A DNA stretch of 64,000 nt from Paenibacillus aceti (GTDB lineage Bacteria > Bacillota > Bacilli > Paenibacillales > Paenibacillaceae): the NCBI RefSeq assembly GCF_003614185.1, contig NZ_KZ987724.1, positions 1,544,633 through 1,608,632 on the forward strand, written 5' to 3'. Positions 9,612-39,388 of the stretch are shown one piece after another. Position 1 is the first letter of the stretch. Each line of letters starts with the position of its first letter. Made by a program: the position numbers and the translations under genes. The notes beneath the pieces were generated by a model. It was not told the DNA's origin and made no database searches. It saw only the letters and a program-made list of their open reading frames with translations.

Positions 9612-9705
9612 ATCCCTCACCTCAATCTATATGTATCTATGAGAGTATGATAATGGATTACGGTAAAACCGACGGAAACGATTTATACTCGTATGTGAAA
9701 TATTG

Positions 9706-11484
9706 TTACCCTGAGCAAATATCCTCATCGACAACGATATATCCGGCCTGATCTTTTGGTCGACTGCTCTCTTCTAGCTTGGGTATAAACATGATAAAGG
9801 TGGTTCCAGCCTCCTCATTTCGCAGCATATCCATTGTCGCATCCGGCCCATAAGTTAAACGCAAGCGCCGAAGCGTATTTAACAATCCGACCCTGCGATT
9901 TTCCTCAACCTGCACTTCCCCCCTAAGTATTGATCTGAGCCGATCGATTTGGCCCTCCTCCATACCGATCCCGTTATCTTTTACCTCTATTATTACGCCT
10001 GACTCTGTCTCGCTAATTTGAACCTCAATCTCTGCATAATCAGGCGGATTTGCAAAACCATGTACAATTGCATTCTCTACCAACGGCTGAAGAATAAGGC
10101 GGGGGACTTCAAATGACTCTAGATGTTCCGGAAGCTCTACGATAAGATACAACCGCAATCGGCTTCTGACCTTCATAATATCGATATAATCCTGGAGCAG
10201 CTTGCATTCCTGGCTTAACGTACTCTTATCGTTCACCCGCATATAAGCTCTTAAAAGACTCATAAGAGCTTCGACCTGCCGACCCCGAATGGAATCCCCC
10301 GCTAGCAGCAGATCGCATTTGATGGAATTTAACGTATTTATCAAGAAATGAGGTCGGATTTGGGAAAACAGAGCCTGCAGCTCAATGATCCTCTTCTCCT
10401 CCTGCTCCTGCTCGACGTCAGCGATCAACTGATTGATCTGATCGAGCATATTGTTAAAGGCGCTGCCTAGAACCCCGAATTCGTCGGAGCCCTTGGCAGG
10501 GAATCGCACGAGCCGATTTCCGCTCCCGAATTGCTCCGCAATTCTCCTTAGCTTGAATAATGGCCGATGAATCCGTTTGGCCAGGACGATGGAGAGAGTG
10601 ATAAAGATCAGGATCGATACGCCGAGTACAAGCCCGTACAGAAAAAATATGTTCGTGATCTCATCCATAATCTCCTTAGGTGAGAAACGGTAACCCACTT
10701 TCCAGCCCGTCTTTGAAATGTCTGATTGCAATTCGATAACTCCAGGGACGGATTCAAGCTCTGATTGCTGCGGGTATAGAAGAATCGGAGTCCCATCTGC
10801 TTCATATAAGCCGATCTGCCCTGCCCCAATGCCTTCGAACAGCTGGTAAAAATACCTGTGCGAAACCGCCACATACAGCACTCCCAAGTAATCATTACCG
10901 TTATGCTCTTTGATCACTTTCACAAAAAGATACGTCGATTCATCGATATCGTACAAATCGCCTTTCTTTACAGGTACGTTAAACCAATAAATACGCTCTG
11001 GATCAGTCTCTCTCTTCCATTGTTCAGTCATCCATTTCGATGTCACCGCCTCGATCCTGTGATTGGCCTCGTAATCAGCACCAGCCGTTCCAATCTGAAA
11101 CTGGGCTTTGTTCACATAGAATACAAGCGCTTTCAAACCTGAAGTCTTGGAAAAGGCCAGATTCAGCATGTCGGAAATCCGCTCATATCGCTTATAATCC
11201 TCCGATGAATCAATCTGGTCCACGTTTTTAAACACCTGCAAATCATCATACAGCGCATTAAATCTAAATAAGTTTGAAGCGTAAATAATGTCCTCCACGC
11301 TTTTTTCCATGTCTCCAGCCATCACATCGACTACATTCTGACGCGAGCTTTGCACCTTGTCAATTACGACATCCTTGATCAAGAAGAAGGCCGTAAATGA
11401 AACGATGGACAGCGGAAGTAGAATAAACATTAACAAAGTTAGCTGATTTCGCATATAGAACGACCGTTTAAAAAGTTTGTACAT
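9706..11484 (-). CDS. YesM-type sensor histidine kinase
   Basis: 592 aa. A membrane helix near residues 13-35, an extracellular sensing domain to about 280, a second helix at about 285-307, then HAMP. The His_kinase box is QIRPHFLINTLNSI with the phospho-acceptor histidine, followed by the N box LVENAIVHGF and G box DNGIGM. This is the LytS/YesM class that pairs with YesN regulators. It lies between the binding-protein gene and the permeases, an arrangement in which the kinase probably senses the loaded binding protein. The start at 11484 has only a weak GTGAGGCGA site. Confidence 0.9.
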   Translation of the reverse strand: MYKLFKRSFYMRNQLTLLMFILLPLSIVSFTAFFLIKDVVIDKVQSSRQNVVDVMAGDMEKSVEDIIYASNLFRFNALYDDLQVFKNVDQIDSSEDYKRYERISDMLNLAFSKTSGLKALVFYVNKAQFQIGTAGADYEANHRIEAVTSKWMTEQWKRETDPERIYWFNVPVKKGDLYDIDESTYLFVKVIKEHNGNDYLGVLYVAVSHRYFYQLFEGIGAGQIGLYEADGTPILLYPQQSELESVPGVIELQSDISKTGWKVGYRFSPKEIMDEITNIFFLYGLVLGVSILIFITLSIVLAKRIHRPLFKLRRIAEQFGSGNRLVRFPAKGSDEFGVLGSAFNNMLDQINQLIADVEQEQEEKRIIELQALFSQIRPHFLINTLNSIKCDLLLAGDSIRGRQVEALMSLLRAYMRVNDKSTLSQECKLLQDYIDIMKVRSRLRLYLIVELPEHLESFEVPRLILQPLVENAIVHGFANPPDYAEIEVQISETESGVIIEVKDNGIGMEEGQIDRLRSILRGEVQVEENRRVGLLNTLRRLRLTYGPDATMDMLRNEEAGTTFIMFIPKLEESSRPKDQAGYIVVDEDICSG

Positions 11485-11530
11485 GCGCTTTTCGCCTCAC
11501 TCCGATCTCAATTCCGATGCAACCGAAAGC

Positions 11531-11563
11531 CTGAAAAGGCCGCCTCAGTGGCCGCCTTTTCAG
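11531..11563 (-). terminator. Hairpin between binding-protein and kinase genes
   Basis: CTGAAAAGGC pairs with GCCTTTTCAG, and three more pairs follow a mismatch. The minus-strand T-run after it is short, so it is more likely a partial terminator or 3'-end stabiliser that keeps binding-protein mRNA in excess over the rest of the operon. Confidence 0.65.
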
Positions 11564-11592
11564 TATACCAATCTATCAATCGGTCTATCTAT

Positions 11593-12975
11593 TCAATTTC
11601 TCGCTTGGCTGATAATTTTATTGGCATCATCCATCATTTGCTTCTGAGCAGCTTCAAACGTCAGGTTGTCAAGCATATAAGCGCTGAAGCCATCCTCGAT
11701 AACCTTCTTCATTTGCCCTGCATAATCAGTTGTCCAGTTCGCGTCGTAGACCGTTTTCGCTCTGCTGTCAAAGACTGTCGCCTTCAAGGACTCCTCCTCG
11801 ATCAGCGCTGCGTCCGAGCCGACCAGAGATTGTATTACTTTTCCAGCATCAGCTTTCTTATAGCCTGGGAAGTCTCGGATCACATCGGTCTGCATAGCCA
11901 CATATTCAATGAATTTATAAGCCTCTTCTTTATGCTTGGAAGAAGCCCCCACCGATAGGTAATCCCCGCCTATGTAAGAAGATCCGATTTCTACACTTTC
12001 CGATGAGCGAGGCAGGGGTGCAAAGACCGTCTGGAAATCATGCGGATATTTCTCTTGATCCTTAATCATTCCGACAATAAATGTCGCTGTAGGTACCATA
12101 GCTGCCTTCCCGCTGAAAAATTCTGAGGCATAATGAAGCTTGGCACCGACGATTTCAGAGAACGGCTTAACGGATTTATCGTCCTTCTCCATAGCACGGC
12201 GTAGCTCGAAGAATTGCTTATAGGATTCATCGTCGAAGATTGGCTGCTGATCTTGAGACAGATACGGATGTGGCTTTTCGGAGTACGCCGGGAAGCCCAC
12301 ATACTCTCCCCAAGTATGGAAGTAAGCTCCAAATTGTTTATCTGCTCCTTCACCTTTGTTCAGTCTTTTCGCATAATCGCGGAAATCATCCCAGGTCCAA
12401 CCCCATTCCGGAATCGGAAGATTGGCTTCATCGAGTGCTTGTTTATTGATGATTACGACCCAAGGGCTGGCCATATCCTGCAGACCGTAGACCTTGCCCT
12501 GATAGACCGGATTGACGTAGAAGTCATTAGTCGGGTCGATATTATTATTCTTGAGGTAATCGTCGATCGGAGCCAGGACGCCTCGTGCTGCCCGCTCGAT
12601 AATAAAATCGACATGAGAGAATTGAATCACATCAATAGGATCGTCCGCCGCACTCATAATATCCAATTTCTTATAGAAGTCAGTGCTGTTGGCGTTATCT
12701 ACAAGCTGAATCGGCTCTACATGGATATCGGGATTCTCCTTCTCAAAGTTAGTGACAATCTTCTGTATATCCTCAAATTGCGAACCATTGTACCAAGTGT
12801 AGTATTTGATCGTAACCTGATCCTTGTTTTCTTCTTTCGGCTGAGATGCAGCCTGATTGCCATCTGTATTACCTGCTGCCTGATCCTTTGCCACCGTATT
12901 TCCCCCGCTAGAGCCGCACCCAGCCATCAATGCAAGCGCAAGGAAGCTGATCAATAGCATTTTGAACCTTTTCAT
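11593..12975 (-). CDS. Sugar ABC transporter substrate-binding lipoprotein
   Basis: 460 aa. The signal peptide ends in the lipobox LMAGC (Cys20), so the mature protein is lipid-anchored outside the membrane. A low-complexity Gly/Ala/Gln linker follows, then a family 1 extracellular binding domain (TIKYYTWYNGSQ, AKRLNKGEG, YIGGDYLSVGASSKHKEEAYKF). It is the first gene of the operon running to the GH29 fucosidase at 4859. GGGGGATG precedes the start. The ligand is inferred to be a fucosylated oligosaccharide. Confidence 0.92.
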   Translation of the reverse strand: MKRFKMLLISFLALALMAGCGSSGGNTVAKDQAAGNTDGNQAASQPKEENKDQVTIKYYTWYNGSQFEDIQKIVTNFEKENPDIHVEPIQLVDNANSTDFYKKLDIMSAADDPIDVIQFSHVDFIIERAARGVLAPIDDYLKNNNIDPTNDFYVNPVYQGKVYGLQDMASPWVVIINKQALDEANLPIPEWGWTWDDFRDYAKRLNKGEGADKQFGAYFHTWGEYVGFPAYSEKPHPYLSQDQQPIFDDESYKQFFELRRAMEKDDKSVKPFSEIVGAKLHYASEFFSGKAAMVPTATFIVGMIKDQEKYPHDFQTVFAPLPRSSESVEIGSSYIGGDYLSVGASSKHKEEAYKFIEYVAMQTDVIRDFPGYKKADAGKVIQSLVGSDAALIEEESLKATVFDSRAKTVYDANWTTDYAGQMKKVIEDGFSAYMLDNLTFEAAQKQMMDDANKIISQARN

Positions 12976-18795: not shown

Positions 18796-19927
18796 TTATG
18801 AGACCAGCTCGAAATCCTTCATATATTTTCGGAAACCTTCGACGATTTCTTTTGAATGAGTATGGTGCAAATAATGTCCTCCATCCAGTTTTATGACTGC
18901 ACCATGAACAGAATCCGTGGCTTGCTCTTCATGCAAAGGAATCCATCCTTTCACGTCAGCATTCTCTGCTTGTACGAAGAGGATAAGCGGAAGCTCCTTA
19001 GGGAATTTCAAAGGCTCAGCCGCTTTAAAATTTGTATAGATATGCTCCATTTCATTCATCATGCTGGAATTATATAAATTTTTGAACATAATCATTCTCA
19101 TTTGTTTTTTCGTTTCGTCATCGAATGGTAGTCCCTCATAGGGGTCTCCACTTAATTTGATTAGCAATCTGGCTAGAACTGATTTTTCAAGAAAACTAGG
19201 ACTGTGAGAACGATCTGCCTTGAAGAACCGCTCAAATATACGCTTCTGATCCTCTGCGGAAATGCCGATGCCTTTATCACTTATTCGGACAATCACGTTC
19301 CTTGTATCTTGTTCGAGGCTGACTTGAATCACACCGTCCTCCGGGGAAAATTTGATGCTATTGCTGAGTATATTGGTCCATACCTGATTTAACTGGTCAT
19401 GGTCAGCGTTGATATGAACTGCGCTTAAGTTTAGCTCAAAATGAATGCGGCGTGCCGCCCATTGCGGCTGAATCGCCACGATAACCCGCCTTATTTGTTC
19501 ATCAAGACTAAATCTAGTCAGCCTCAGCTGCTGTGACTACGATTCAAGCAAGCTTAGCTTCAGCAGGCTATCACTCAACTTGGACATTCGCTCCGCTTCA
19601 GCGATGATAATATCAAGATAACGGCTTCGTTCATGGTCCGGGATAGCTACATGCTTGAGCGCTTTCGCATAACCGGATATGGAGGTAAGCGGCGAGCCAA
19701 TGTGCCCAGTTCACCTTTTTGCTTAATATTCAATTCAACATTGAAATCTCCGGCTGCTATCTGTTTAGTCGCTTTTGTCATCTTCTTGATCAGTCTTACC
19801 AGGAAGATGGAGGCGACCAAGATGAACAGACTACCTGCTATTAATGAATAGGCGATAAAAGAAGATAACCATTTTATGCAAGCTCACGAATGTTCGTATC
19901 GTCATCGGCAACCAGTATAGTGGGCAT
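18796..19927 (-). pseudogene. Chimeric relic: response regulator start, decayed histidine kinase, hydrolase 3' part
   Basis: Reading the minus strand from 19927: MPTILVADDDTNIRELA then TAA (19874), the first 17 residues of an OmpR-type regulator with a GAGAGAGAGG site. Next comes a histidine kinase piece (SFIAYSLIAGSLFILVASIF, HAMP IAAGDFNVELNIKQKGELGT), an internal deletion with frame change, the dimerisation part (LTSISGYAKAL, ISEAERMSKLSDSLLKL-like) ending in a TAG at about 19528, and then the ATPase domain (LNQVWTNILSNSIKFSPEDG; ISDKGIGISAEDQKRIFERF). After FFKADRSHS the frame passes directly into the C-terminal half of an alpha/beta hydrolase, which keeps the late catalytic region GGHYLHHTHSKEIVEGFRKY but has no nucleophile elbow. 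At least three deletions and one nonsense change are needed, so the 227-codon frame from 19479 is not a real gene. Confidence 0.75.
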
Positions 19928-20016: not shown

Positions 20017-20976
20017 CTAGTTACCCCATGCCGCGCGGATGCTCTCGGCCTCTCTCACCATTCGCTCGATCAGCTGCGATACTGTCGGAATATCGTGAAT
20101 CATGCCTGTCACCTGTCCTGCCCAGCCGAAGCCTTCCTCCTTGACGCCGTCATAAATCCAGCGGCGGTTGGCCTCACCACCGATATAGTCTTTGAGCGCT
20201 TCATATGTAGGCGTTACGCGTTCAATCTCCAGGACTCGGTCGATATAGTCGTTACGCAATACTCTGGCCGGATAACCGATCGAACGTTTAATGATGACCG
20301 TATCCGTCTCCGAGCTCTCAAGCAGCGCTTTTTTATAGGATGCGGATGCATTCACACATTCCATAGTAGCGATGAAGCGCGTCCCCATCTCGATCCCCTG
20401 TGCTCCCAGCGCATGAGCTGCCATCCAGCCGCGGCCGTCCCCGATTCCACCTGAGGCAATAACAGGGATGCGAACAGCATCGACGACCTGAGGCACCAGC
20501 ACCATTGTCCCGACATCGTCACGTCCCAGATGCCCTCCTCCTTCCTGCCCGACGACGATGACTGCGGAGGCACCGAGTTGCTCGGCCTTTTGCGCCTGTC
20601 TACGCGAAGAGACGAGTACCATCGTTTTAATCTTCGCCGATTGTAATTTGTTCAGAATCCCGGAAGGATTGCCCCCGGTTATGCTTACTACAGACACTTT
20701 CTCCTCCATCGCCACCGCCAAGTGATCTTCATAAGCGGCATCATGCATCCCGATGGCAAAATTAACCCCAAACGGCCGATCGGTAAGCATGCGTGCCCGC
20801 TGGATTTCCCGGCGCAGGGCCGCGGCATCAGGAAGGCTCATCGCGGTAATCTGGCCCAAGCCTCCCGCATTCGAGACTGCCGCAGCCAGATCTGAGTAGG
20901 CCAAGTAAGCGAGCCCCCCTTGGATTATCGGATATTTAATATGTAGTAGCTCCGTTATACTTGTGCCCCATTTCAT
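20017..20976 (-). CDS. FMN-dependent nitronate monooxygenase / FabK-type enoyl reductase family protein
   Basis: 319 aa from the ATG at 20976, six bases after GGAGGGG; the ATG at 20982 abuts that site. TIM-barrel flavoprotein: YPIIQGGLAYLAYSDLAAAV, the loop GQEGGGHLG with the conserved His, and the FMN-phosphate region ASGGIGDGRG then GTRFIAT. Nitronate monooxygenase and the enoyl-ACP reductase FabK share this fold and motifs. As the last gene of a run with ligase, thiolase, ketoreductase and hydratases, a FabK-like enoyl reductase role fits the context better. It lies 36 bases after ecfT. Sequence alone does not separate the two activities. Confidence 0.8.
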   Translation of the reverse strand: MKWGTSITELLHIKYPIIQGGLAYLAYSDLAAAVSNAGGLGQITAMSLPDAAALRREIQRARMLTDRPFGVNFAIGMHDAAYEDHLAVAMEEKVSVVSITGGNPSGILNKLQSAKIKTMVLVSSRRQAQKAEQLGASAVIVVGQEGGGHLGRDDVGTMVLVPQVVDAVRIPVIASGGIGDGRGWMAAHALGAQGIEMGTRFIATMECVNASASYKKALLESSETDTVIIKRSIGYPARVLRNDYIDRVLEIERVTPTYEALKDYIGGEANRRWIYDGVKEEGFGWAGQVTGMIHDIPTVSQLIERMVREAESIRAAWGN

Positions 20977-21012
20977 CCTCATCCCCTCCTTTATCCTAGC
21001 ATAGGTAGCTCA

Positions 21013-21801
21013 CTATAATAACATCAGCATAATCGCAAATGCAATCGCTAGTCCACCCGCGCAATAATCGAGGCGTGTCAGCCTTAACTGCCGATAGGCG
21101 GTTCTACCCTTGCCCTTGCCATAAGCCCGCGCATCGATCGCCAGCGTCAGCTGTTCGGCCCGCTGTACCGTCGCGAAGATCAGAGGAACAAGAATCGGAA
21201 TGTAAGCGAAGAAGCGTCTCGGCGGCTTCACCGCATGGATATCATAGCCTCTGGCCTGCTGCGCCTGAATGATCCGCTCCAGCTCCTGTCGGATCGTCGG
21301 AATGAAGCGGATAGCAATCGCGATCATCAGGGAGAATTGCTCCACCGGCAGATGGAAGCGGGAGAGCGGCGACAGCAGCCTGTCCAGCCCCTGTGCCAGA
21401 GATAGCGGCTTGGTCGTCAGGGTCAGCACTGAGGCGAGTTGAATGAGTAGAATGATCCGGAGCACGAACCACGCTCCGTTCTGTAGACCTCCGACAGTCA
21501 CATGAATGAAGGACCAGGACCAGATGATGGTTCCGTCAGTAGTGAAGGCATGATATAGAAAAGTAAAGGCCAGAATCAACGAGATCGGCCGCAGCCCTCC
21601 CCAGTACATGCGCAGCGGGATTCTGGTCGAGACCAGCACCGCCAGTACAAAGAGCACTGCGAGCATGTATCCGGTCAAGCTGTGGAGCAGCATGAAGCTC
21701 AGCATAATAAGCATCATCGACAGAAGCTTGACCCTCGGATCGAGACGATGCCAGATGGAATCCATCTCCACATACTGTCCTAACAGGATATTATTCGTCA
21801 T
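21013..21801 (-). CDS. ecfT: Energy-coupling factor transporter transmembrane protein EcfT
   Basis: 262 aa from the ATG at 21801, which overlaps the ecfA2 stop by ATGA and has GGAGAGGTG upstream. About five or six membrane segments. The two coupling motifs of EcfT proteins are present: AQQARGYD near residue 180 and AIDARAYG near 220, which bind the two ATPases. With EcfA1 and EcfA2 it forms the energising module that drives an S component, here most likely BioY at the head of the same operon. Confidence 0.93.
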   Translation of the reverse strand: MTNNILLGQYVEMDSIWHRLDPRVKLLSMMLIMLSFMLLHSLTGYMLAVLFVLAVLVSTRIPLRMYWGGLRPISLILAFTFLYHAFTTDGTIIWSWSFIHVTVGGLQNGAWFVLRIILLIQLASVLTLTTKPLSLAQGLDRLLSPLSRFHLPVEQFSLMIAIAIRFIPTIRQELERIIQAQQARGYDIHAVKPPRRFFAYIPILVPLIFATVQRAEQLTLAIDARAYGKGKGRTAYRQLRLTRLDYCAGGLAIAFAIMLMLL

Positions 21802-22652
21802 GCAAGCACACCTCTCCTCTGCCAAATCGGCGCTAGCGCTTGAATAATATCGCCCTCCCGGCAGCTGGCTACTTCAATCCTCTGTCCGCATAATTCCTCC
21901 GTCAGCCTAAGGAGTTGCACTGGCTCTGGCAAGGGTAGTCCGGCCCTCTCCAGCAGCTCTGGCTTCTCGAAGAATAAAATACGAGCTGATTCATGTCCTC
22001 GTAAACGTCCTTCATGAAATACCATCACTTCATCCGAATACTCGGCCACATCCTCCATCTGATGGGAGATGCAGAGTAGCGTGCGGTTGTCTTGCTGCTG
22101 CCACGCTTTCAGCATGCGCAGCATGGCCGCCCGGTTCACCGGGTCAAGTCCGGCCGTCGGTTCATCGACGATCAGCAGTCCCGGATTCATCAGCAGCACC
22201 GACGCAATGGCGACGAGCCGCTTCTGCCCCCCGCTTAACTGCAAGGGAGAGAGGGGAAGAATCTCCCTTTGTAGCCCCATCTGCGGCAGAATCTGCTCAA
22301 TCGCCTGCTTGATCTGCCCGCTCGAATACCCAAGCATCTTCGGGGCGAAGGCCAGCTCTTTATAGACCGTCGTCTCGAACAGCTGATGCTCGGGATATTG
22401 GAACACGAAGCCAATATCAGGAATCACCTTGACCTGTCCCTTGGTATCTCTGGGAACAGGCTGTCCATCGATCAGATAATCTCCTTGGAAGTCGGGTATC
22501 AGCCCCTTCAAGGTTTTGACGAATGTAGACTTCCCGGCGCCGGTATGACCGATAATAGAAATCCAGCGTCCTTCCTCTATCCTGCAATCGATATTGCTCA
22601 GAGCGCTGCGCCCGGAGTAATTCACATTTACCTGTCTTAGTTCATAGACCAT
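21798..22652 (-). CDS. ecfA2: Energy-coupling factor transporter ATPase EcfA2
   Basis: 284 aa from the ATG at 22652, which overlaps the end of ecfA1; the frame also has an upstream TTG at 22676. Walker A GHTGAGKST, Q loop FVFQYPEHQLFE, signature LSGGQKRLVAIA, Walker B LLIVDEPTAGLD, and switch His in CISHQMED. It pairs with EcfA1 and couples ATP hydrolysis to EcfT. The AAGGAG site lies rather far (14 bases) from the ATG, so the start is less certain. Confidence 0.92.
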   Translation of the reverse strand: MVYELRQVNVNYSGRSALSNIDCRIEEGRWISIIGHTGAGKSTFVKTLKGLIPDFQGDYLIDGQPVPRDTKGQVKVIPDIGFVFQYPEHQLFETTVYKELAFAPKMLGYSSGQIKQAIEQILPQMGLQREILPLSPLQLSGGQKRLVAIASVLLMNPGLLIVDEPTAGLDPVNRAAMLRMLKAWQQQDNRTLLCISHQMEDVAEYSDEVMVFHEGRLRGHESARILFFEKPELLERAGLPLPEPVQLLRLTEELCGQRIEVASCREGDIIQALAPIWQRRGVLA

Positions 22653-23437
22653 TGGGAACGAAGCATCTCCTTCCAATCTGCAGACAGCTGCGCTTGGGGC
22701 GCCAGCGTTCGATGGAGCCGAACGGCAAAGGGCAGCTCCAATTCATAATCGGCAACGGCCATCGTGTCAAAAAAGGCCGCCGGATCGCCGTCATACTCCA
22801 GCCGCCCTTGATGAATCAACAATAAGCGCAAGGCAGAGAGAGCTTCCTCCATATGATGAGTGATATGAATGATCGTCATCCCCTGGCGGTGCAGCTCATG
22901 CATAATGGACAGCATTTCCTTCCTTCCCTGCGGGTCAAGCATCGAGGTGGCTTCATCAAAAATGATAATACGAGGACGCATCGCCAGTACAGCAGCGATG
23001 GCCACCTTCTGCTTCTGACCCCCGGATAGCTGATGCGGTGCCGCGTCCTCATAGCCTTCCATTCGCACGGCTCGCAGAGCTTGATCCGCCCGAGCGCGCA
23101 TCTCTTCCCTCGGCACACGGATATTCTCCAAGCCGAATATGATTTCATCTAGGACGGAAGCTGTAATGAATTGATTCTCCGGATTCTGGAATACGAAGCC
23201 GATTTGCTCCCGGATCATGGCCAGCTCCGCCGGATTGGCAGTGTCCAGCCCCCGGTAAGTCACACGCCCTCCCCTCGGAAGCAGCAGCCCATCCATCAAT
23301 TGGGCGAGGGTCGATTTCCCGCAGCCATTAGCACCGACGATGGCGACGAATTCGCCTTCTTCAATCGAGAAGCTTATATGATCTATAACAGGCTGGCGTT
23401 TCTGATAATAAAAAAACACCTGATCAAATCTGAGCAT
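22637..23437 (-). CDS. ecfA1: Energy-coupling factor transporter ATPase EcfA1
   Basis: 266 aa. Walker A GANGCGKST, Q loop FVFQNPENQFI, signature LSGGQKQKVAIA, Walker B IIIFDEATSMLDP, switch His ITHHMEE. The start overlaps the end of the ketoreductase gene by 14 bases, so translation is likely coupled. It forms the asymmetric ATPase pair with EcfA2. Confidence 0.93.
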   Translation of the reverse strand: MLRFDQVFFYYQKRQPVIDHISFSIEEGEFVAIVGANGCGKSTLAQLMDGLLLPRGGRVTYRGLDTANPAELAMIREQIGFVFQNPENQFITASVLDEIIFGLENIRVPREEMRARADQALRAVRMEGYEDAAPHQLSGGQKQKVAIAAVLAMRPRIIIFDEATSMLDPQGRKEMLSIMHELHRQGMTIIHITHHMEEALSALRLLLIHQGRLEYDGDPAAFFDTMAVADYELELPFAVRLHRTLAPQAQLSADWKEMLRSQWSMN

Positions 23438-24266
23438 CCTCTTCCTCTCTCTCCTTTAACCCCTGCCGCCAAGCTGTGAAGAACGATTCCGGGCCTTCCG
23501 TGGAAAAGTCGATCCTCGGTTTTTCCCAGCGACAGATCCTCGAACCGTTCACCCCGAATATTTCCCCGGTCAGCTCCTGATCCGGCTGGACAAGCAGCGC
23601 AGCTGCAAATCGGGCCACATCCTCGGCTTCGCCTACCTCCCAAAATACCGGAAACGGCTCTTGGCGCATGGCGTATTTCTCCCTGATCCGCTCGATCACC
23701 GGTCTTGTCATATCCGTTAAGGCAGCCGGCGAAATCGCGTTCACTCGTATCTTCTGCCGTCGCAGCTCAGCTGCCAGCGTCCATACGATGCCTAGCATCC
23801 CCGCTTTGGCCGCGCTGTAGTTCACTTGGCCCACAGAGCCCTGGCAGCCGGCTGTCGAAGTCATTAGTAGAATATCTCCTCCACGCTCATCAAAATGAGG
23901 GAGTACCCGCTGGATACAGTAAAATGCAGCGTTCAAATGCACATTCAGTACCGCTTGCCACTCTTCATCCGTCATCTCAAGACATCTGCGATCCCGTACG
24001 ATCCCGGCATTGTGGATCAAAACGTCAATGAACTCGAATTTGGCAGTGACTGCGTCCACCATCGCCGTTACCGCAGAGGCATCTGCAATATCGGCGCAAT
24101 AGCCCATCGCCTCACCTCCGGATTCATGGATCTCCCGCACCACTTCATCGATGAGCCTTTGCTTCGTGCCGTTTACGATTACTCGGTAGCCCTCTTGCCC
24201 CAATTGCAGCGCGATACAGCGGCCAATGCCGCGGGTAGCGCCCGTAATTATAGCCGTCCTGGTCAT
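23424..24266 (-). CDS. Short-chain dehydrogenase/reductase (FabG-like 3-ketoacyl reductase)
   Basis: 280 aa. Rossmann motif TGATRGIG at residues 8-15, NAG at 86-88, and the catalytic triad Ser137, Tyr150, Lys154 (YSAAK). This matches the FabG/PhaB class that reduces 3-ketoacyl thioesters with NAD(P)H. The tail after residue 240 is about 30 residues longer than usual for FabG and ends inside ecfA1. Its start overlaps the stop of the upstream MaoC gene by one base. In this operon it would reduce the thiolase product. Confidence 0.9.
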   Translation of the reverse strand: MTRTAIITGATRGIGRCIALQLGQEGYRVIVNGTKQRLIDEVVREIHESGGEAMGYCADIADASAVTAMVDAVTAKFEFIDVLIHNAGIVRDRRCLEMTDEEWQAVLNVHLNAAFYCIQRVLPHFDERGGDILLMTSTAGCQGSVGQVNYSAAKAGMLGIVWTLAAELRRQKIRVNAISPAALTDMTRPVIERIREKYAMRQEPFPVFWEVGEAEDVARFAAALLVQPDQELTGEIFGVNGSRICRWEKPRIDFSTEGPESFFTAWRQGLKEREEEDAQI

Positions 24267-24640
24267 CAGAATCCCCCTTTCACCGATTTCACAGCAAAGC
24301 TTCCAGTCGCGATCACCTCGCCATGTTCTGAAGTAACCTTAACATCGACTTGTTCTCCACATTCTACAAACTCGAAATTCGCGATGGTATCCTGTAGAAG
24401 CGGCCTTTGGAATCTCATACTGCTGGCTGAAATCCAGGGCAACTGATGCTCTGCCAGACTCGCCAAATCCAGATTCGCCAAGTATAGAGACTGCGCAAGC
24501 CCCATTACATACATTCCGTGCGCAATAGGCCGCTCGTATCCCGCTTCCGCAGCCGCTGCATGATCGAGATGGATCGCCGCCATATCCCCGGAAGCCTCCG
24601 CATATTGGCGGATCGCCGCTGCTGTAATCCATTTCCTCAT
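24266..24640 (-). CDS. MaoC-like (R)-specific enoyl-CoA hydratase
   Basis: 124 aa, a single hotdog domain. The hydratase motif is present as YAEASGDMAAIHLDHAAA, then IAHGMYVMG, with the catalytic pair Asp19 and His24. Family members interconvert (R)-3-hydroxyacyl and trans-2-enoyl thioesters. ATGA overlap with the upstream gene. It probably forms a two-protein dehydratase with the neighbour at 24637-25017, as seen for split MaoC/FAS1-like dehydratases. Confidence 0.88.
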   Translation of the reverse strand: MRKWITAAAIRQYAEASGDMAAIHLDHAAAAEAGYERPIAHGMYVMGLAQSLYLANLDLASLAEHQLPWISASSMRFQRPLLQDTIANFEFVECGEQVDVKVTSEHGEVIATGSFAVKSVKGGF

Positions 24641-25017
24641 GCTTCATCACCTACCCCAATAAGCACCGTTTCAGCTGTAACGATAAGGCTGCCGTCACAT
24701 TTGCAGATCAGCTTATGCGTATACAAGGTCAATCGGCTCTGCCGGCCCATCTTATGTTCCATTTTGCTTAGTGATAACTCACAATCAAGAGTCATTCCCG
24801 CAGTGATTGGCGCTTCATACCAGAATTGTTGGGAGCCATGAATCAATATGCAGTCTGCGGGAAGCCAAGGAATTTCAGCGGCTTTCCAGAAAATGATGGG
24901 CATCCCCGCCGGTGCGATGAGTAAGCCATTGATTCTCTGCAATGGAGCCTCAATGCTGCTGGCATACTCAGCGATCGACTCGGCGCTGATATGAAGTCTG
25001 CGATGCAGCCTGTTCAT
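24637..25017 (-). CDS. MaoC_N / FAS1-like dehydratase domain protein
   Basis: 126 aa hotdog-type protein lacking the D-x4-H hydratase motif. It has the FAS1-like dehydratase features APAGMPIIFWKAAEIPWLPA, ILIHGSQQFWYEAPITAGMT and a C-terminal strand TAETVLIGVG. Such non-catalytic subunits pair with a catalytic MaoC protein. The ATG at 25017 overlaps the thiolase stop, and its stop overlaps the next ATG. Confidence 0.75.
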   Translation of the reverse strand: MNRLHRRLHISAESIAEYASSIEAPLQRINGLLIAPAGMPIIFWKAAEIPWLPADCILIHGSQQFWYEAPITAGMTLDCELSLSKMEHKMGRQSRLTLYTHKLICKCDGSLIVTAETVLIGVGDEA

Positions 25018-26165
25018 AGGGGCGCCTCGACTAGTACGGCCATCCCAAGACCACCGCCAATGCCCAGTGTAGCTATCCCGTGCGTATAAGGCTTATGCAG
25101 CATCTCGGCACATAGCCGGGTGACCAGGATTGCCCCTGAGGCACCATACGGATGGCCGAGCGCGAGTGCGCCCCCTCCCGGATTGACCTTCTCCTCCGGG
25201 ATATGTAGCTCCTTCAGGGAGGCCAGCACTTGCGCGGCGAAGGCCTCGTTGAACTCGACGATATCCAGATCGTCAATGCGTAGCCGCTGCCGCTCCAGCA
25301 GCTTGCGCACGGCCGGGACAGGGCCGATGCCCAGATACTGCGGGTCTACGCCAACCACCTGGGTGTCGACGATCCGCAGGATGGGCCGCAGCTTAAGCTC
25401 GGCGCATTTCCGGCTCGACATCATCAGGACCAGAGCCGCCCCATCATTGAGCGGACATGCATTGCCTGCGGTAACCGTTCCTTCTGGCAGGAATACCGGC
25501 GGCAGCTTCTGCAGCTTGTCCAGACTCGTATCGGCTCTGGGGCATTCGTCTGCGGTGACCCGCGCCCCTCCGACCTGCAGCGGCAAGATTTCCTGCTCGA
25601 ATCTTCCCGTCTGCTGCGAGCGAACCGCCTTCTCATGGCTTCTTAAGGCGTAGCGATCCTGCTCCGCCCTGGAGATGGCGAATTTCTGCGCCACATTCTC
25701 CGCGGCTATGCCCATGTCCGGGTCGCCATAGGCAGCCGGTGTGAACTTCGCTCGCGTATACAGCCGGGGAGCTTCCGCTAACGTCCGCGGCTTGGCCATT
25801 CTCCACGGCGCCCGGCTCGTGCTCTCGACGCCGCCAGCCAGATACACGTCCCCGGCTCCGCTCTGAATAAGCCTGGCCGCGATATGTATCGCTTCAAGAC
25901 CCGAACCGCACTGTCGATCCACCGTCACGCCCGGTACAGTTACGGGCAGTCCGGCTTCCAGTGCGGCGACCCGGGCGATATTGCCGCCCGGGCCCACGAC
26001 ATTGCCGATGATACAATCGTCAATGGAGTCTGCAGGCAGACTCGTCTCTGAGACGATCTGCCGGATCAGCGGCGCCAACAATTCCTCCGGCTCCAGCTGA
26101 CTGAGCTGGCCGCCCATCCGCCCGATCGGCGTACGCTTGGCCATCACGATGACAGGCTCTAGCAT
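25014..26165 (-). CDS. Thiolase family protein (YhfS-like), second catalytic Cys replaced by Gly
   Basis: 383 aa. The nucleophile Cys86 in VDRQCGSG, NEAF and the oxyanion/base His338 in LGHPYGASGA are all present. The last motif reads ATLGIGGGLG where thiolases have CIGGG, so the acid/base Cys is Gly368 (codon GGC instead of TGC). In classic acetyl-CoA acetyltransferases that Cys activates the acetyl-CoA enolate, so normal condensation may be impaired or mechanistically different. The first bases overlap the ligase gene. Resembles YhfS of the Bacillus yhfUTS operon by position and neighbours. Expected to extend an acyl-CoA by two carbons, or to run the reverse reaction. Confidence 0.88.
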   Translation of the reverse strand: MLEPVIVMAKRTPIGRMGGQLSQLEPEELLAPLIRQIVSETSLPADSIDDCIIGNVVGPGGNIARVAALEAGLPVTVPGVTVDRQCGSGLEAIHIAARLIQSGAGDVYLAGGVESTSRAPWRMAKPRTLAEAPRLYTRAKFTPAAYGDPDMGIAAENVAQKFAISRAEQDRYALRSHEKAVRSQQTGRFEQEILPLQVGGARVTADECPRADTSLDKLQKLPPVFLPEGTVTAGNACPLNDGAALVLMMSSRKCAELKLRPILRIVDTQVVGVDPQYLGIGPVPAVRKLLERQRLRIDDLDIVEFNEAFAAQVLASLKELHIPEEKVNPGGGALALGHPYGASGAILVTRLCAEMLHKPYTHGIATLGIGGGLGMAVLVEAPL

Positions 26166-27646
26166 AGCGCTCCTCTTTTCATATATTCTTTCATAGCATG
26201 GCGAGAAATTTTCCCGCTACTCGTATAAATGAACCGCTCCACCGCGACAAGCTGCTTCGGCGCTTTATAGCTCGCCAGATGGAGACGGCAATAATCCTTG
26301 ATTTCCTCTAGGCTCAAGCGTGCTTCCCCGCTCCATTGCACGATGGCTGTGATCCGCTCTCCCCAATAAGCGTCAGGCAGCCCCATCACCATGATCTCCT
26401 GAATCGCCGGAATTTGCCGCAGCACGGCCTCCACTTCCTCGGGAAACACATTCAGCCCCCCGGAGATCATCCTGTTCCTAACGCGACCAGCCATATACAA
26501 GTACCCGTCCGTATCCACGGATGCATAGTCTCCCAGCTGGAGCCAGCCTTCCCGGAACACGGCGGCCGTCTCGGCGGGCATTTGATAATACCCCGAGAAC
26601 ATCATGCCGCTGCGGATATAGAGCTGTCCGACCGTTCCGGCTGGAACCTCACGGAACTCCTCATCGCGGATGGAGATCTCTACTCCCCGGAAGGGACGAC
26701 CTACCGACTGCGGCTTATGCTCCATCCTAACATCCATATAGCTGATGTAACTGGCCTCCGAGGAGCCATAATATTCGTACAGCCTGGCCTCGGGAAACAC
26801 ATCCATACACCTCTTTCTCGAAGCCTCCAACCATTGACCACCGGAGCTGATCAACGCCTGAATCGATGTCTGCCCAGGCTTCGCTTGCTGCAGTAACGCT
26901 TCAATCATCGTAGGCACGACGAACAGGATCATATCAGGAATCCGACGGCATAGCTGCAGTACCGCTTCAGCATCGAAATGCTCGATAATATGAAAAGTAG
27001 CCCCACTATGCAGACTCTGCATCAGGGCGAATAAAGACAAGGAATGAACGAACGGCCCCGGGGCGGAGATATGCTCCAGCCGATTCAATTGAAAAGCTTC
27101 ATTCGTCGCTGCAAAGCTAGTAATCCACGATGAATGCGTTCGTATATACCCCTTCGGCTTCCCGGTCGTCCCTGATGTGAAGCCGATGAATAACAATTCA
27201 TTGCTGTCGTCCAGATCGGCCTCCGCTTCTAACGGCGCGAGCCAGGCTTCGTAGGAGCCAATCTCCTCTTCACTGGAGAAGATCAGAATCCGTCGCTCCC
27301 CCTCTGGCACCTGCAATTTGGGGGTCTGTCCCGCTTCTATGAAAATCATGCCTGGCTGGGTTAACTGGAGAATCTCGTTCATCTCCGTCTCGCTCCACTT
27401 GGGATCGATCGGAACGGGCACACATCCTGCATATACCGCTCCCAGGAAGATCTCTACGAATTCACAGCGATTCGCTGATATAATCGCGACTTTATCATTT
27501 TTAAGTCCCTCCTGCCTTAATCCGCAGGCGATCCTCTTCATTCTCTCTACCAAAGCGGCATACGTCATACCCGTCCGATCATCAGACAAAGCCAGTCTAT
27601 CTGCATGATCGATGGCATGGCGCAGCAGCGGCTCTACCAGATTCAT
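26159..27646 (-). CDS. AMP-forming acyl-CoA synthetase (YhfT-like)
   Basis: 495 aa from the ATG at 27646, eight bases after GGGAG. ANL-superfamily motifs: FIGFTSGTTGKPKGYIRTH near residue 155, YEYYGSSEAS, LGDYASVDTDGYLYMAGR and the C-terminal lysine in SGKISRH. It activates a carboxylic acid as acyl-AMP, then CoA thioester. First of the nine tightly packed genes downstream of bioY, in the position of YhfT in Bacillus. The acid is unknown; a dicarboxylate or fatty acid feeding the pimeloyl moiety is the inferred substrate. Confidence 0.9.
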   Translation of the reverse strand: MNLVEPLLRHAIDHADRLALSDDRTGMTYAALVERMKRIACGLRQEGLKNDKVAIISANRCEFVEIFLGAVYAGCVPVPIDPKWSETEMNEILQLTQPGMIFIEAGQTPKLQVPEGERRILIFSSEEEIGSYEAWLAPLEAEADLDDSNELLFIGFTSGTTGKPKGYIRTHSSWITSFAATNEAFQLNRLEHISAPGPFVHSLSLFALMQSLHSGATFHIIEHFDAEAVLQLCRRIPDMILFVVPTMIEALLQQAKPGQTSIQALISSGGQWLEASRKRCMDVFPEARLYEYYGSSEASYISYMDVRMEHKPQSVGRPFRGVEISIRDEEFREVPAGTVGQLYIRSGMMFSGYYQMPAETAAVFREGWLQLGDYASVDTDGYLYMAGRVRNRMISGGLNVFPEEVEAVLRQIPAIQEIMVMGLPDAYWGERITAIVQWSGEARLSLEEIKDYCRLHLASYKAPKQLVAVERFIYTSSGKISRHAMKEYMKRGALC

Positions 27647-27676
27647 AACCATCACTCCCACTTCCAATTCAATCTC

Positions 27677-27953
27677 TAAACGAAACTACAGATCGCTATT
27701 CCTCAGAAACAGCGTTATGTACAGTCTAACGAAACACCCTATTGTTATTTGCGTGAAAACTAGCCTTGTAGCCCCTTAATTTGCTCTAATGGCGATACCC
27801 AGTTTCGTTAAAATTTGCGACAACTCTTTGAGCACGAGTAGCGTCACCCGTTTCGTCAAATTTACGACTGCCCTTTTGAGCGCAAGTAGCGTTACCGTTC
27901 CGTTAAATTCGCGACAGCCCTTTAAGCGCGGGTATCGTTACTCCGTTTCATTA
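27677..27953. repeat. Tandem 47-48 bp degenerate repeats with inverted partial copies
   Basis: On the minus strand four units start with TAAYGRAAC-type cores at plus-strand positions 27945-27953, 27897-27905, 27850-27858 and 27802-27810, spacing 48, 47 and 48. The shared pattern is TAACGAAAC, then GGGTAACGCTAC, GCGCTCAAAGGGC and TGTCGCAAATT. The first unit's TAA is the bioY stop codon. Partial copies in the opposite direction begin at 27677 and 27727. Related single copies lie at 17282 and 60275. No gene is present in this 305-base gap. Confidence 0.8.
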
Positions 27954-28541
27954 GAGAGAATTGACCTTTTCTTCTATCGGACTGATCGTCTTCAATTGCA
28001 CCGCGACCACGGCGGCGATAATCGCTTTAATACAATCCCCAGGCAAGAAACCGACAGCCCCGACAAGGGCGGTCCAGACCGGGATATGGGTGATCATCGC
28101 CATGACCGGAGCACCGATCAACGATACGAGAACAGCACCGAAGACAAAGTTAATGATGAATACTTTCCATATTTTCAGCTTACCCCATACTTTCTCCGTC
28201 GCCCAACCGATACAGAACGCCGCTATAGGCCAACTAAAGATATATCCAGCCGACGGCCCGATTAAGTAAGTGAGTCCTCCGCGTCCTCCCGACAACATAG
28301 GCAGACCCAGAGCAACCAATACGATAAACAGAATCAAGCTGATTCCTGCTATTTTCCGCCCCAAAAAGCATCCGGCCAGCATAACGCCAAGCGTCTGAGC
28401 GGTAACAGGAACCGGGATGAACCCCAACGGGATCGGGGGAACCAAGGCTAATGCTCCAATAAATGCGGCGAATAAAGCGGCGAATACCATTTCTTTCGTT
28501 CTCATTCCACTACCTCCGATCAGGATCAATCTATATTTCAC
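27951..28541 (-). CDS. bioY: Biotin ECF transporter S component BioY
   Basis: 196 aa, about six membrane helices. Family signatures: FAALFAAFIGALALVPPIPL at the start, FIPVPVTAQTLGVMLAGCFL, and GRGGLTYLIGPSAGYIFSWP. BioY binds biotin with high affinity and works with EcfA1/A2/T. The start at 28541 is probably an upstream codon; MRTKEMVFAALF (28505) is the more usual N-terminus and should be considered. The BirA-type operator at 28581-28618 lies just upstream, so biotin should repress the gene. The energising module is encoded in the same direction 4.5 kb downstream. Confidence 0.92.
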   Translation of the reverse strand: MKYRLILIGGSGMRTKEMVFAALFAAFIGALALVPPIPLGFIPVPVTAQTLGVMLAGCFLGRKIAGISLILFIVLVALGLPMLSGGRGGLTYLIGPSAGYIFSWPIAAFCIGWATEKVWGKLKIWKVFIINFVFGAVLVSLIGAPVMAMITHIPVWTALVGAVGFLPGDCIKAIIAAVVAVQLKTISPIEEKVNSL

Positions 28542-28580
28542 TCCATGCGCACTAAAAGTGATTATAGACTGATCTTTTTC

Positions 28581-28618
28581 GATTGTAAACCATAAATATT
28601 AATTATAGGTTGACAATC
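28581..28618 (-). promoter_or_regulatory. BirA (biotin repressor) operator
   Basis: GATTGTAAACC (28581-28591) and GGTTGACAATC (28608-28618) form an inverted repeat with one mismatch and a 16-base spacer. This fits the known BirA pattern TTGTNAACC-N14-16-GGTTNACAA. The spacer contains TATAAT on the minus strand, so the repressor would cover the promoter of bioY and perhaps the whole operon. Confidence 0.9.
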
Positions 28619-32072: not shown

Positions 32073-33151
32073 TTATTTCAACAGCTTGGTGAACTTATCT
32101 GTTACTTCCGCGCCATGCTCGCCCATCCATGCCCAATCCGTCTTCAGCAGCGGAATCTCTTCCAGATTGGCGCGGTTCTCAGCCTTGATATCCGTGCGGC
32201 CCGGCAGTAATGCGGCGTCGGAGACCAGCTTCTGTGCGGAATCGGAGAGCAGATAATCGATGAATGCCTTGGCATTCGCTTCATGCTTAGTAGATTTCAA
32301 AATGGCAGCTGGACGGGGGCTGACCACTGTACCTTCCTGCGGATAGACGATGTCGATCGGTTCTCCCTTGGCTTTTGCCTTGTAAGTCATATAGTCGACT
32401 GCTCCAGCTACCATGCTCTTCGCCCCGGTGATGACCGGATCAAGTGCCTCCTGGTAGCCCCGGCCAGCGCTACACCGTTCGCTTTATACTGCTCGAACAG
32501 GGACCAGCCGCCATCGCCCTGATCGCTAAGATAACCCGTGATGAAGTCGAGCGCGGAGCCTGATAACGATGGGTCAGGGATATTGATCTGATCCTTATAT
32601 TCGGGCTTGGTCAGATCGCTCCAGGATGTCGGGGGCGTCGTAACCAGCTTCGTATTATAAGCAATGCCGAGCGCCGAGGCGCTGGTGCTGAAGTAATTGC
32701 CCTCCGGATCGGACCAGTCCTTGTTCAGCTTGTCCGCATTTTGCGCTTCTGGATAAGGTAGCGTCAACCCTTCATTCTTAAGTCCCTGCGCGGATGGCAG
32801 CGAGGCTAGAATCACCACATCGGCCACCGGATTGGACTTCTCTGCTTCAAGACGGGCCAGAATTTTGCCTGTAGTACCTTGGAACATCTCTACCTTAATG
32901 CCGGACTGGGATTGAAAATCCTCAATAAGCTTGTTTGCCAGGCCTTCAGGTCCTGCTGTATATACCGTGAGCGTCTTGTCTGCTGCAGCTTGCGTGGGCT
33001 TGTTCTCTGCGCTGGCCGGAGTCGCTGTGTTTTGAGCCGCCTCTCCGCTTCCACTACCGCTTCCACAGCCAGCCAAGGCAACACCCAGGGCTAAAGTCAG
33101 CACCAGGCCGCTTCCCTTCTTCCTTGCATTACATGTCCAGTTCCACATCAT
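32073..33151 (-). pseudogene. Fe3+-type ABC transporter binding lipoprotein, frameshifted
   Basis: The first frame (33151-32408) gives a signal peptide with lipobox VALAGC and a family 1/6 binding domain (TLTVYTAGPEGLANKLIEDF; FQGTTGKILARLEAEKSNPV). It goes out of frame after NGVALAGA near 32455. The other frame continues with QEALDPVITGAKSMVAGAVD and through VYPQEGTVVSPRP to the stop at 32073. Adding one A (GCTACC to GCTAACC, encoding AN before QEAL) restores one 360-residue protein. Either a recent mutation or a sequence error; all other parts look intact. Confidence 0.85.
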
Positions 33152-38671: not shown

Positions 38672-39388
38672 CATGACCACCCGTCCAACGGGTGGTTTGC
38701 ACTTGGGGTATAACCCCCTGTTGCCAAACTGCGCCTAAAGACGCTAGCCTGACCACAAATCTGTTCAGGCTCAGTGTAATTTGTCACTTTCACTAACCAG
38801 TTAAACTGGTTTATTTCTTTTTGCTCCTGTTACTGCTAAACGGATCTTCGTACTCTTTTACACTCAACTTATCTATTGCTTGGTCATGTGCTTCTTGTTC
38901 ACGAATGTATTTTGCTACGGTTGCTTCATTTAGGCCCACTGTACTTACATAATAGCCTTCTGCCCAAAATTTTCGATTCCCATATTTATACTTTAGTTGC
39001 GCGTGCTTTTCAAAGATCATTAGCGAACTTTTCCCCTTCAGATATCCCATGAATGTGGACACGGCTATCTTTGGGGGGATCGCTACCAGCATGTGTACAT
39101 GATCTGGCATCATATGACCTTCCAGGATGTCCACTCCCTTATACTTACATAAACGTTTGAAAATTTCGATTAAGTCTTTCCTCACTTGATTATAGATCTC
39201 TTTCCGTCTATACTTCGGGGTGAACACAATGTGGTATTTGCACATCCACTTCGTGTGAGCTAGACTATAGCTCTTGTTTGCCATCTAAGACCATTCCTTT
39301 CAATTGAGCCTGAACATCTCAATTCTATCGGGATGGTCTTATTGGTCAAACCCTCGATCCCTCCACCCGCATAGCGGGTGGTTTTTTG
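38672..39388 (-). mobile_element. IS200/IS605-type insertion element (IS200 group)
   Basis: About 715 bases, the usual IS200 size, with one transposase gene. Subterminal hairpins mark both ends: ACCACCCGT with ACGGGTGGT at 38676-38696, and CCACCCGC with GCGGGTGG at 39363-39381 followed by six T. No terminal inverted repeats or target duplication are expected for this family. Exact ends are estimated from the hairpins. Confidence 0.75.
38811..39284 (-). CDS. tnpA: IS200-type Y1 HUH transposase TnpA
   Basis: 157 aa. The HUH motif is HVHML at about residues 62-66, and the catalytic tyrosine lies in the YYVSTVG segment (about residue 111). The N-terminal KYHIVFTPKYRRKEI is typical. It moves single-stranded DNA via the hairpins at the element's ends. 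Length is normal and the frame is intact, so the element may be active. Confidence 0.93.
   Translation of the reverse strand: MANKSYSLAHTKWMCKYHIVFTPKYRRKEIYNQVRKDLIEIFKRLCKYKGVDILEGHMMPDHVHMLVAIPPKIAVSTFMGYLKGKSSLMIFEKHAQLKYKYGNRKFWAEGYYVSTVGLNEATVAKYIREQEAHDQAIDKLSVKEYEDPFSSNRSKKK

Follow-up and report, generated by a model that had tools for sequence, protein, structure and literature searches.

A predicted BirA-controlled bioY operon in Paenibacillus aceti that may rebuild biotin from its shortened forms

Introduction

Why would a bacterium that lacks the genes for making biotin keep, beside its biotin importer, every enzyme needed to lengthen an acyl chain by two carbons? The question is raised by a ten-gene operon in a 64-kb stretch of the genome of Paenibacillus aceti (we call this whole stretch the window), in which the importer gene bioY is followed by genes for an acyl-CoA ligase, a thiolase, two hotdog proteins, a ketoreductase, three further transporter proteins and a flavoprotein, behind a predicted operator of the biotin repressor BirA. 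A biotin importer, a biotin repressor, no biotin synthesis and a full reductive two-carbon elongation set together suggest that the substrate is a biotin-like acid two or four carbons short. The reading we favor, tentatively and at just under an even chance, is that the operon salvages biotin by re-elongating forms of the vitamin whose side chain has been shortened, namely bisnorbiotin and perhaps tetranorbiotin. Both compounds are described as known biotin metabolites (PMC10670868). Throughout, G000 denotes the window's own genome, and other G and L numbers denote compared genomes and loci.

The operon and its predicted control by BirA

An earlier sequence-only reading of this DNA had placed ten genes on one strand and assigned them to families; their positions and order (minus strand, 20017-28505) and their families stand, as judged by open reading frame positions and by Pfam and NCBIfam profile searches. 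In order of transcription, the genes are:

27951..28505, minus strand: bioY, biotin-specific S component of an energy-coupling factor (ECF) transporter (PF02632, E 1.1e-35); reading frame extendable to 28541
26159..27667, minus strand: acyl-CoA ligase of the ANL family (PF00501/PF13193), likely start 27646
25014..26165, minus strand: thiolase (PF00108/PF02803)
24637..25017, minus strand: HadA/ChsH2-like hotdog protein without the catalytic Asp/His (PF13452, E 2.6e-5; HadA model E 1e-5, below cut-off)
24266..24640, minus strand: catalytic MaoC (R)-specific enoyl-CoA hydratase/dehydratase with D19 and H24 (PF01575, E 9.5e-14)
23424..24266, minus strand: FabG-like short-chain dehydrogenase/reductase (SDR) ketoreductase with Y-x3-K (PF00106/PF13561; FabG model 200.6 bits, cut-off 297.75)
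22637..23437, minus strand: EcfA1 ATPase (TIGR04520, 315.3 bits, above the cut-off of 315)
21798..22676, minus strand: EcfA2 ATPase (TIGR04521, 266 bits, cut-off 330)
21013..21825, minus strand: EcfT transmembrane coupling protein (PF02361, E 1e-35)
20017..20982, minus strand: flavin mononucleotide-dependent, FabK-like enoyl reductase of the nitronate monooxygenase (NMO) family (PF03060, E 4.2e-65)

We set the start of bioY to the ATG at 28505, which corrects the earlier annotation. The operon thus holds a complete, dedicated ECF biotin transporter (BioY, EcfA1, EcfA2 and EcfT), and its bioY is the sole BioY match in the genome. By family assignment it also encodes each step of a reductive elongation turn on CoA thioesters, as had been proposed, and the Pfam search finds no acyl-CoA dehydrogenase among its genes.

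Three further features bear on transcription:

28583..28616, minus strand: BirA operator core, TTGTCAACC-N16-GGTTTACAA, 18 of 18 consensus positions
28561..28589, minus strand: sigma-70-like promoter, TTTACA-17-TATAAT, 11 of 12 consensus positions
27792..27949, no strand: tandem repeat found by repeat scan, 47-bp unit, 3.3 copies, between bioY and the ligase gene

The operator that the sequence-only reading had placed before bioY is the sole site scoring at least 16 of 18 within the window, on a degenerate 18-position consensus that was composed after the window site had been seen; 20 base-shuffled windows, scanned on one strand, contain no match at this threshold. It overlaps the -35 box of the promoter match. 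Across the whole window our promoter and terminator scan returns matches at shuffle level (7 promoter-like against 8.3 expected, 5 terminator-like against 8.2 expected). The genome encodes a single BirA (TIGR00121, 225.7 bits), the N-terminus of which we judge by eye to be a helix-turn-helix.

From the ligase to EcfT, adjacent genes overlap by 1-40 bp when the longest starts are taken, and 30 bp separate EcfT from the flavoprotein gene. The wide gap is the one that separates bioY from the ligase gene. It measures 304 bp when the ATG at 27646, the start of most relatives, is taken for the ligase, compared with 46 bp, 31 bp and an overlap in the three relatives that have bioY in that place. In this gap the same scan, at shuffle level overall, detects neither a terminator-like nor a promoter-like match. 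A transcription stop after bioY, which had been named as a finding that would speak against a single unit, was rejected on the lack of a terminator-like site, and read-through from bioY into the ligase gene is likely. The sequence evidence supports the prediction that the ten genes form one BirA-controlled bioY operon.

Biotin genes in the genome and the family

In the G000 assembly (5.6 Mb, completeness 100) no late biotin gene, of four sought, passes its profile cut-off: the best bioB candidate reaches E 5.5e-9, bioA scores 255.5 bits where 405 are required, bioF scores 24 bits, and bioD has no match whatsoever. The positive control genome, G005, has bioF, bioA, bioD and bioB all above their cut-offs. 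The operon had been expected to co-occur with these four genes, and we find the reverse, both here (0 of 4) and across the family.

A search with the MaoC protein gives 13 matches among 148 family genomes, 11 of them strong; the two weak ones (G065, G107) are left out of what we call the carriers. None of the 11 carriers has bioB, bioA or bioD above the cut-offs, and bioB is found in 77 of the 148 genomes. With a HadA profile as marker, 59 of 395 family genomes match. In 50 the match is strong, at E 3.2e-49 or below; the remaining nine, excluded as weak (E 9.6e-9 to 3.3e-14, frames of 305-364 aa), include six that carry bioB (G226, G065, G242, G243, G244 and G090). Overall bioB is above cut-off in 181 of the 395 genomes, but it is present in only 1 of the 50 with the strong marker versus 180 of the other 345 (Fisher p 1.5e-13). 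A within-genus permutation expects 17.6 bioB-bearing marker genomes where we count 1, and 0 of 200,000 draws reached 1 or fewer; these depletion statistics take genomes of one genus as independent. Including the weak HadA matches gives bioB in 7 of 59. The lone bioB-bearing marker genome, G252, has no bioF. Within this Paenibacillaceae sample, then, the operon is by gene content a trait of biotin auxotrophs. Run against 398 genomes of the phylum, the HadA profile matched two Paenibacillaceae strongly and 13 other genomes weakly (E 3.8e-4 to 7.5e-13).

A second type of salvage is likely present in the same family. Two genomes, G018 and G065, have bioB with neither bioA nor bioD above cut-offs, G018 also lacking bioF, and G252 has bioB without bioF; these three are likely users of desthiobiotin. 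Salvage of desthiobiotin by bioB-only bacteria is described as established (PMC9561691). It resembles our proposal for the operon in that a vitamer rescues biotin auxotrophs, and it differs in requiring BioB, absent from 49 of the 50 family marker genomes, and in its vitamer and chemistry.

A thiolase with an altered active site

The standard thiolase motif set (CxS, NEAF, GHP, CxG) is incomplete in the operon thiolase. It retains the nucleophile C86 together with N306 and H338, and alignment shows the CxG cysteine replaced by Gly368 in all 11 carriers. A different cysteine, Cys237, stands at GN[AT]C (GNACP in the window thiolase), where the other thiolase of G000 has Ser; a control paralogue, L118, retains the CxG cysteine. 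The same change extends to wider relatives: among the best 80, the 77 readable at all five sites have Cys237 in every case, with Gly368 in 74, Ser368 in 3 and Cys368 in none. We also observe Ser in place of Gly at the CxG site, with Cys237 retained, in three actinobacterial thiolases (L097, L100, L101).

In the Zoogloea thiolase the CxG cysteine is described as the base (PMC3406046), and from the alignment we infer that Cys237 may be this base, relocated. The nearest precedent is found in SCP2-thiolases, which have also lost the CxG cysteine and in which a cysteine of the HDCF loop is thought to be catalytic instead (PMC7682436). The difference is one of position: the operon thiolase retains NEAF, and its new cysteine lies at GNxC.

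A pair of hotdog proteins

The sequence-only reading had called the first hotdog protein FAS1-like. Its family holds, but the protein lacks the catalytic Asp/His of its MaoC neighbor: D19 and H24 are invariant in the MaoC proteins of all 11 carriers, and no such dyad is seen in the alignment of the HadA-like partner. A catalytic Asp/His subunit thus adjoins an inert hotdog subunit, the arrangement of HadAB and ChsH-type enzymes, and gene adjacency suggests that the two proteins form one heteromeric dehydratase. AlphaFold2 (AF2) single-chain models give the MaoC protein (mean predicted local distance difference test score, pLDDT, 84.9) a 14-residue central helix at residues 42-55, and the partner (pLDDT 89.8) no helix of at least 4 residues in the corresponding part; the statement that the helix is lacking has these single-chain models as its basis. 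A comparison of loop lengths between the two proteins was uninformative, the two segments not being equivalent.

Foldseek matches the partner to PaIch, HadAB/HadBC and the ChsH complex, and the MaoC protein to HadBD/HadAB, PhaJ, MFE-2 and the ChsH complex (ChsH1 and ChsH2 chains were assigned from chain length). Both known complexes, ChsH1-ChsH2 and HadAB/HadBC, pair a catalytic MaoC protein with an inert hotdog partner; against this likeness, identity in the Foldseek matches is just 9-22%, and the operon pair has no DUF35 domain. In ChsH1-ChsH2, the inert ChsH2 is described as modified to accommodate steroid rings and as carrying a shorter central helix (PMC11321319). By analogy, the modeled absence of this helix from the partner suggests a bulky acyl-CoA substrate. 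HadAB relatives act on long acyl chains, and for this reason the bulky-substrate argument stays unproven.

A proposed salvage of norbiotins

We infer the substrate, the direction, the subunit pairing and the product release of the pathway as follows. When biotin is scarce BirA would leave its operator, and BioY, with the co-encoded EcfA1, EcfA2 and EcfT, would import bisnorbiotin and perhaps tetranorbiotin, supplied by other organisms that shorten biotin by beta-oxidation. The ligase would convert the norbiotin to its CoA thioester, the thiolase would condense norbiotinyl-CoA with acetyl-CoA, and the SDR would reduce the 3-keto group. Water would then be removed by the MaoC/HadA-like dehydratase, in which the MaoC subunit may be catalytic while the bicyclic ring is held by the inert one; reduction of the enoyl-CoA to biotinyl-CoA would fall to the FabK-like flavoprotein. 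Bisnorbiotin would take one turn and tetranorbiotin two, and a thioesterase encoded outside the operon would release biotin.

Conservation and spread beyond the family

All ten relatives that we read retain the order ligase-thiolase-HadA-MaoC-SDR-(EcfA1-A2-T)-NMO. The Ecf genes lie within the operon in 6 of the 11 carriers, the window included, and every carrier genome has bioY somewhere. A BirA box (16-18 of 18 positions) precedes the operon in 8 of the 11; in five of these bioY is missing from that place and the box leads straight into the ligase. The boxes of L016 and L022 extend over the point where the longest reading frame begins. Of the 13 BioY loci in carrier genomes, 11 have a BirA box.

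Several smaller observations concern the same loci. In L015 and L018 an apparent 3' remnant of a deleted bioY, identified by eye, precedes the ligase without a BirA box, and the same two genomes have an intact bioY elsewhere (L104, L105) with the box. One Paenibacillus group has birA divergently adjoining a bioY-ligase-thiolase operon (G110, the genome of both L022 and L035, and L036, L038, L039 and L041); in L022 it lies at 10607-11620. In Paenibacillus sacheonensis the ligase lies in two overlapping frames (L023 at 9487-10981, and L042), through a frameshift or a sequencing error.

To look further afield we scanned named genomes with the thiolase alignment and kept the best 80 of 550 candidates with a relative, a sample that leans to near relatives. 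These 80 loci come from several phyla; a ligase is nearby in 77, BioY lies within 7 kb in 64, a HadA-like protein is found in 36, MaoC in 38 and NMO in 20. The ligase-thiolase core is, on this gene-neighborhood evidence, tied to biotin. The parts appear in graded sets: BioY-ligase-thiolase alone in Azospirillum (with ECF genes) and in actinobacteria, BioY-ligase-thiolase-HadA-MaoC-SDR in Pontibacillus, and the full set in Paenibacillus and in Kurthia L060, where the HadA-like protein is unmatched. Alicyclobacillus L092 has BioY-NMO-thiolase-ligase with the other parts unmatched. A search of viral contigs with the MaoC protein gave 39 pattern matches and no relative.

The simplest sets recall bioY-yhfT-yhfS (yhfUTS) of Bacillus subtilis and Staphylococcus aureus, a kinship proposed by the sequence-only reading and borne out by gene order and families, bioY being followed by ligase and thiolase (B. 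subtilis YhfT and YhfS are compared by description). B. subtilis and S. aureus make biotin, and besides bioY their operon is not known to hold more than the ligase and thiolase. The P. aceti operon adds the hotdog pair, the ketoreductase, the enoyl reductase and the ECF module, and its genome has shed the de novo genes. The two systems share BirA control, predicted for P. aceti and described for the others: BirA represses bioY, yhfS and yhfT, and yhfT-yhfS are given as genes for a putative fatty acid ligase and acetyltransferase (PMC6391492, PMC7235819, PMC11089781).

These distributions allow a wider version of our proposal, which we think possible but hold with more reserve than the reading for P. 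aceti itself: a multi-phylum salvage system that rebuilds biotin from its beta-oxidation catabolites with acetyl-CoA and a thiolase of relocated base, with yhfT-yhfS of Bacillus and Staphylococcus as its minimal form. If this were true, bisnorbiotin and tetranorbiotin, regarded as end products of breakdown, would be vitamin sources for many bacteria, "dead" biotin would return to the nutrient pool, and genome-based calls of biotin auxotrophy would need rereading. The BirA-regulated yhfT and yhfS would gain a function, and the thiolases a member with a relocated base.

Weighing the explanations

Several observations weigh against norbiotin salvage. The best NCBIfam model for the ligase is the acyl-CoA synthetase PRK07638, at 419 bits under a cut-off of 518; the flavoprotein fails the FabK equivalog test (284 bits, cut-off 453.1), and its nearest PDB sequence, FabK 7l00, is closely followed by nitronate monooxygenase-type entries; the thiolase has lost the Zoogloea-type base cysteine; and no thioesterase is found among the operon genes. 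By sequence the nearer relative of the dehydratase is HadAB, on a weak match, and a steroid-ring hydratase, Shy, is described as working without an inert partner (PMC11321319). Transport of norbiotins by BioY and their use by the ligase are conjectural, and the open-access literature that we searched, which excludes most subscription papers, has no report of bacterial norbiotin re-elongation or bisnorbiotin use. The genomic association is also imperfect. Of the 50 genomes counted in the family, 11 had their operon read and 39 enter by the marker alone; in 2 of the 50 the marker frame contains a stop. The gene bioY heads the operon in 4 of 11 carriers and is not adjacent to the enzymes in 7, and in three carriers that belong to a single genus (G053, G094, G013) the operon is not preceded by a BirA box. 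Five of the 11 carriers have bioF-like proteins, two above the cut-off and three slightly below; these may be the related KBL enzyme.

The same side of the balance receives the bioB counts outside the family. We submitted 50 of the best 80 loci to a bioB search, of which 49 were searched, and grouped the genomes ourselves by set completeness and taxon; bioB is present in 29 of the 49. It is found in 0 of 11 named Paenibacillaceae that hold the ligase, thiolase, HadA, MaoC and SDR (a set that overlaps the family sample, at least in L035, which is G110), and in 1 of the 8 alphaproteobacteria checked. Near-full sets outside the family have it in 8 of 10, other Bacillales-type genomes in 15 of 15 and the remaining genomes in 5 of 5. 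The ten near-full sets are:

With bioB: Psychrobacillus L030, Kurthia L046 and L060, L050, L058, L061, L067, L070
Without bioB: Pontibacillus L062, L066

Both Kurthia loci, L046 and L060, hold a near-full operon that includes Ecf genes and the flavoprotein, in genomes with bioB. By these counts the link to auxotrophy appears to hold for Paenibacillaceae and the alphaproteobacteria checked and to break in Bacillaceae and their kin. Because bioB is retained there, the system must serve bioB-keeping bacteria too. A prototroph with bioB could still salvage; nonetheless, these carriers slightly lower our estimate for salvage and slightly raise that for pimeloyl-CoA synthesis.

Which other explanations could account for the operon? 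The most serious, though unlikely, is that it spares biotin rather than restoring it: at low biotin acetyl-CoA carboxylase fails, and imported fatty acids would be activated and lengthened with acetyl-CoA in place of malonyl-CoA, so that membranes are made biotin-free. This explanation shares with salvage its enzymes, its repressor and the enrichment in family auxotrophs, and it fits a HadAB-like dehydratase. It leaves unexplained, however, why BioY, often with an ECF module, should be in the operon, and why BioY stands beside the ligase and thiolase alone in Azospirillum and actinobacteria; an acetyl-CoA-primed route would not require the ligase, and an inert partner predicted to lack the central helix suggests a bulkier substrate. 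The strong linkage to BioY is instead accommodated by supposing that some other BioY-imported molecule, another vitamer or a ring-bearing acid, is re-elongated or activated, and the ligand range of BioY and the ligase leaves room for it. We rate this somewhat lower again: we know of no vitamer besides the norbiotins that requires two-carbon elongation, and biotin sulfoxide, biocytin and desthiobiotin require different chemistry.

The sequence-only reading itself had proposed two other routes; the first, and the degradative half of the second, we consider very improbable. One was a malonyl-ACP-independent synthesis of pimeloyl-CoA from glutaryl-CoA and acetyl-CoA for de novo biotin. The enzymes could perform such a turn, and the relatives in bioB genomes (the 29 of 49 above, searched for bioB only), where such a route is conceivable, include near-full sets, but G000 has no bioF, bioA, bioD or bioB to use the product, 49 of the 50 family marker genomes lack bioB and the last lacks bioF, and an internal route would not need import by BioY and ECF proteins. 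Barring unknown replacement enzymes, we reject it for G000 and, by bioB, for those 49 genomes. A condensing enzyme linked to biotin does have a counterpart in BioZ, a 3-ketoacyl-ACP synthase on a de novo route to pimeloyl-ACP (PMC7645780); BioZ serves de novo synthesis, whereas the P. aceti operon has a thiolase in an auxotroph. The other route was salvage or degradation of a biotin precursor, and its degradative half, put as oxidative shortening of biotin imported by BioY, fares as poorly. Ligase, hydratase, dehydrogenase and thiolase can all work in the beta-oxidation direction, yet an operator for a biotin-responsive repressor predicts expression at biotin scarcity, the family carriers are auxotrophs by gene content, the operon has an enoyl reductase instead of an acyl-CoA dehydrogenase, and R-specific MaoC and FabG-type enzymes with a FabK-like reductase match the reductive direction. 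Regulation and enzyme set thus both disfavor degradation.

Other features of the window

Four further loci in the window, all read by eye, lie outside the operon. At 18796-19479 a reading frame appears to join a histidine-kinase ATPase stretch to an alpha/beta-hydrolase C-terminus, perhaps a fusion by deletion. An apparent mannitol phosphotransferase system EIIC/EIIB gene at 53855-55317 is broken near 54502 into two reading frames in different frames. At 32408-33151, beside ABC permease and ATPase genes, the frame of an iron-type substrate-binding protein seems to be shortened by a frame change. Finally, an IS200-like transposase reading frame at 38811-39284 is flanked by two genes for methyl-accepting chemotaxis proteins.

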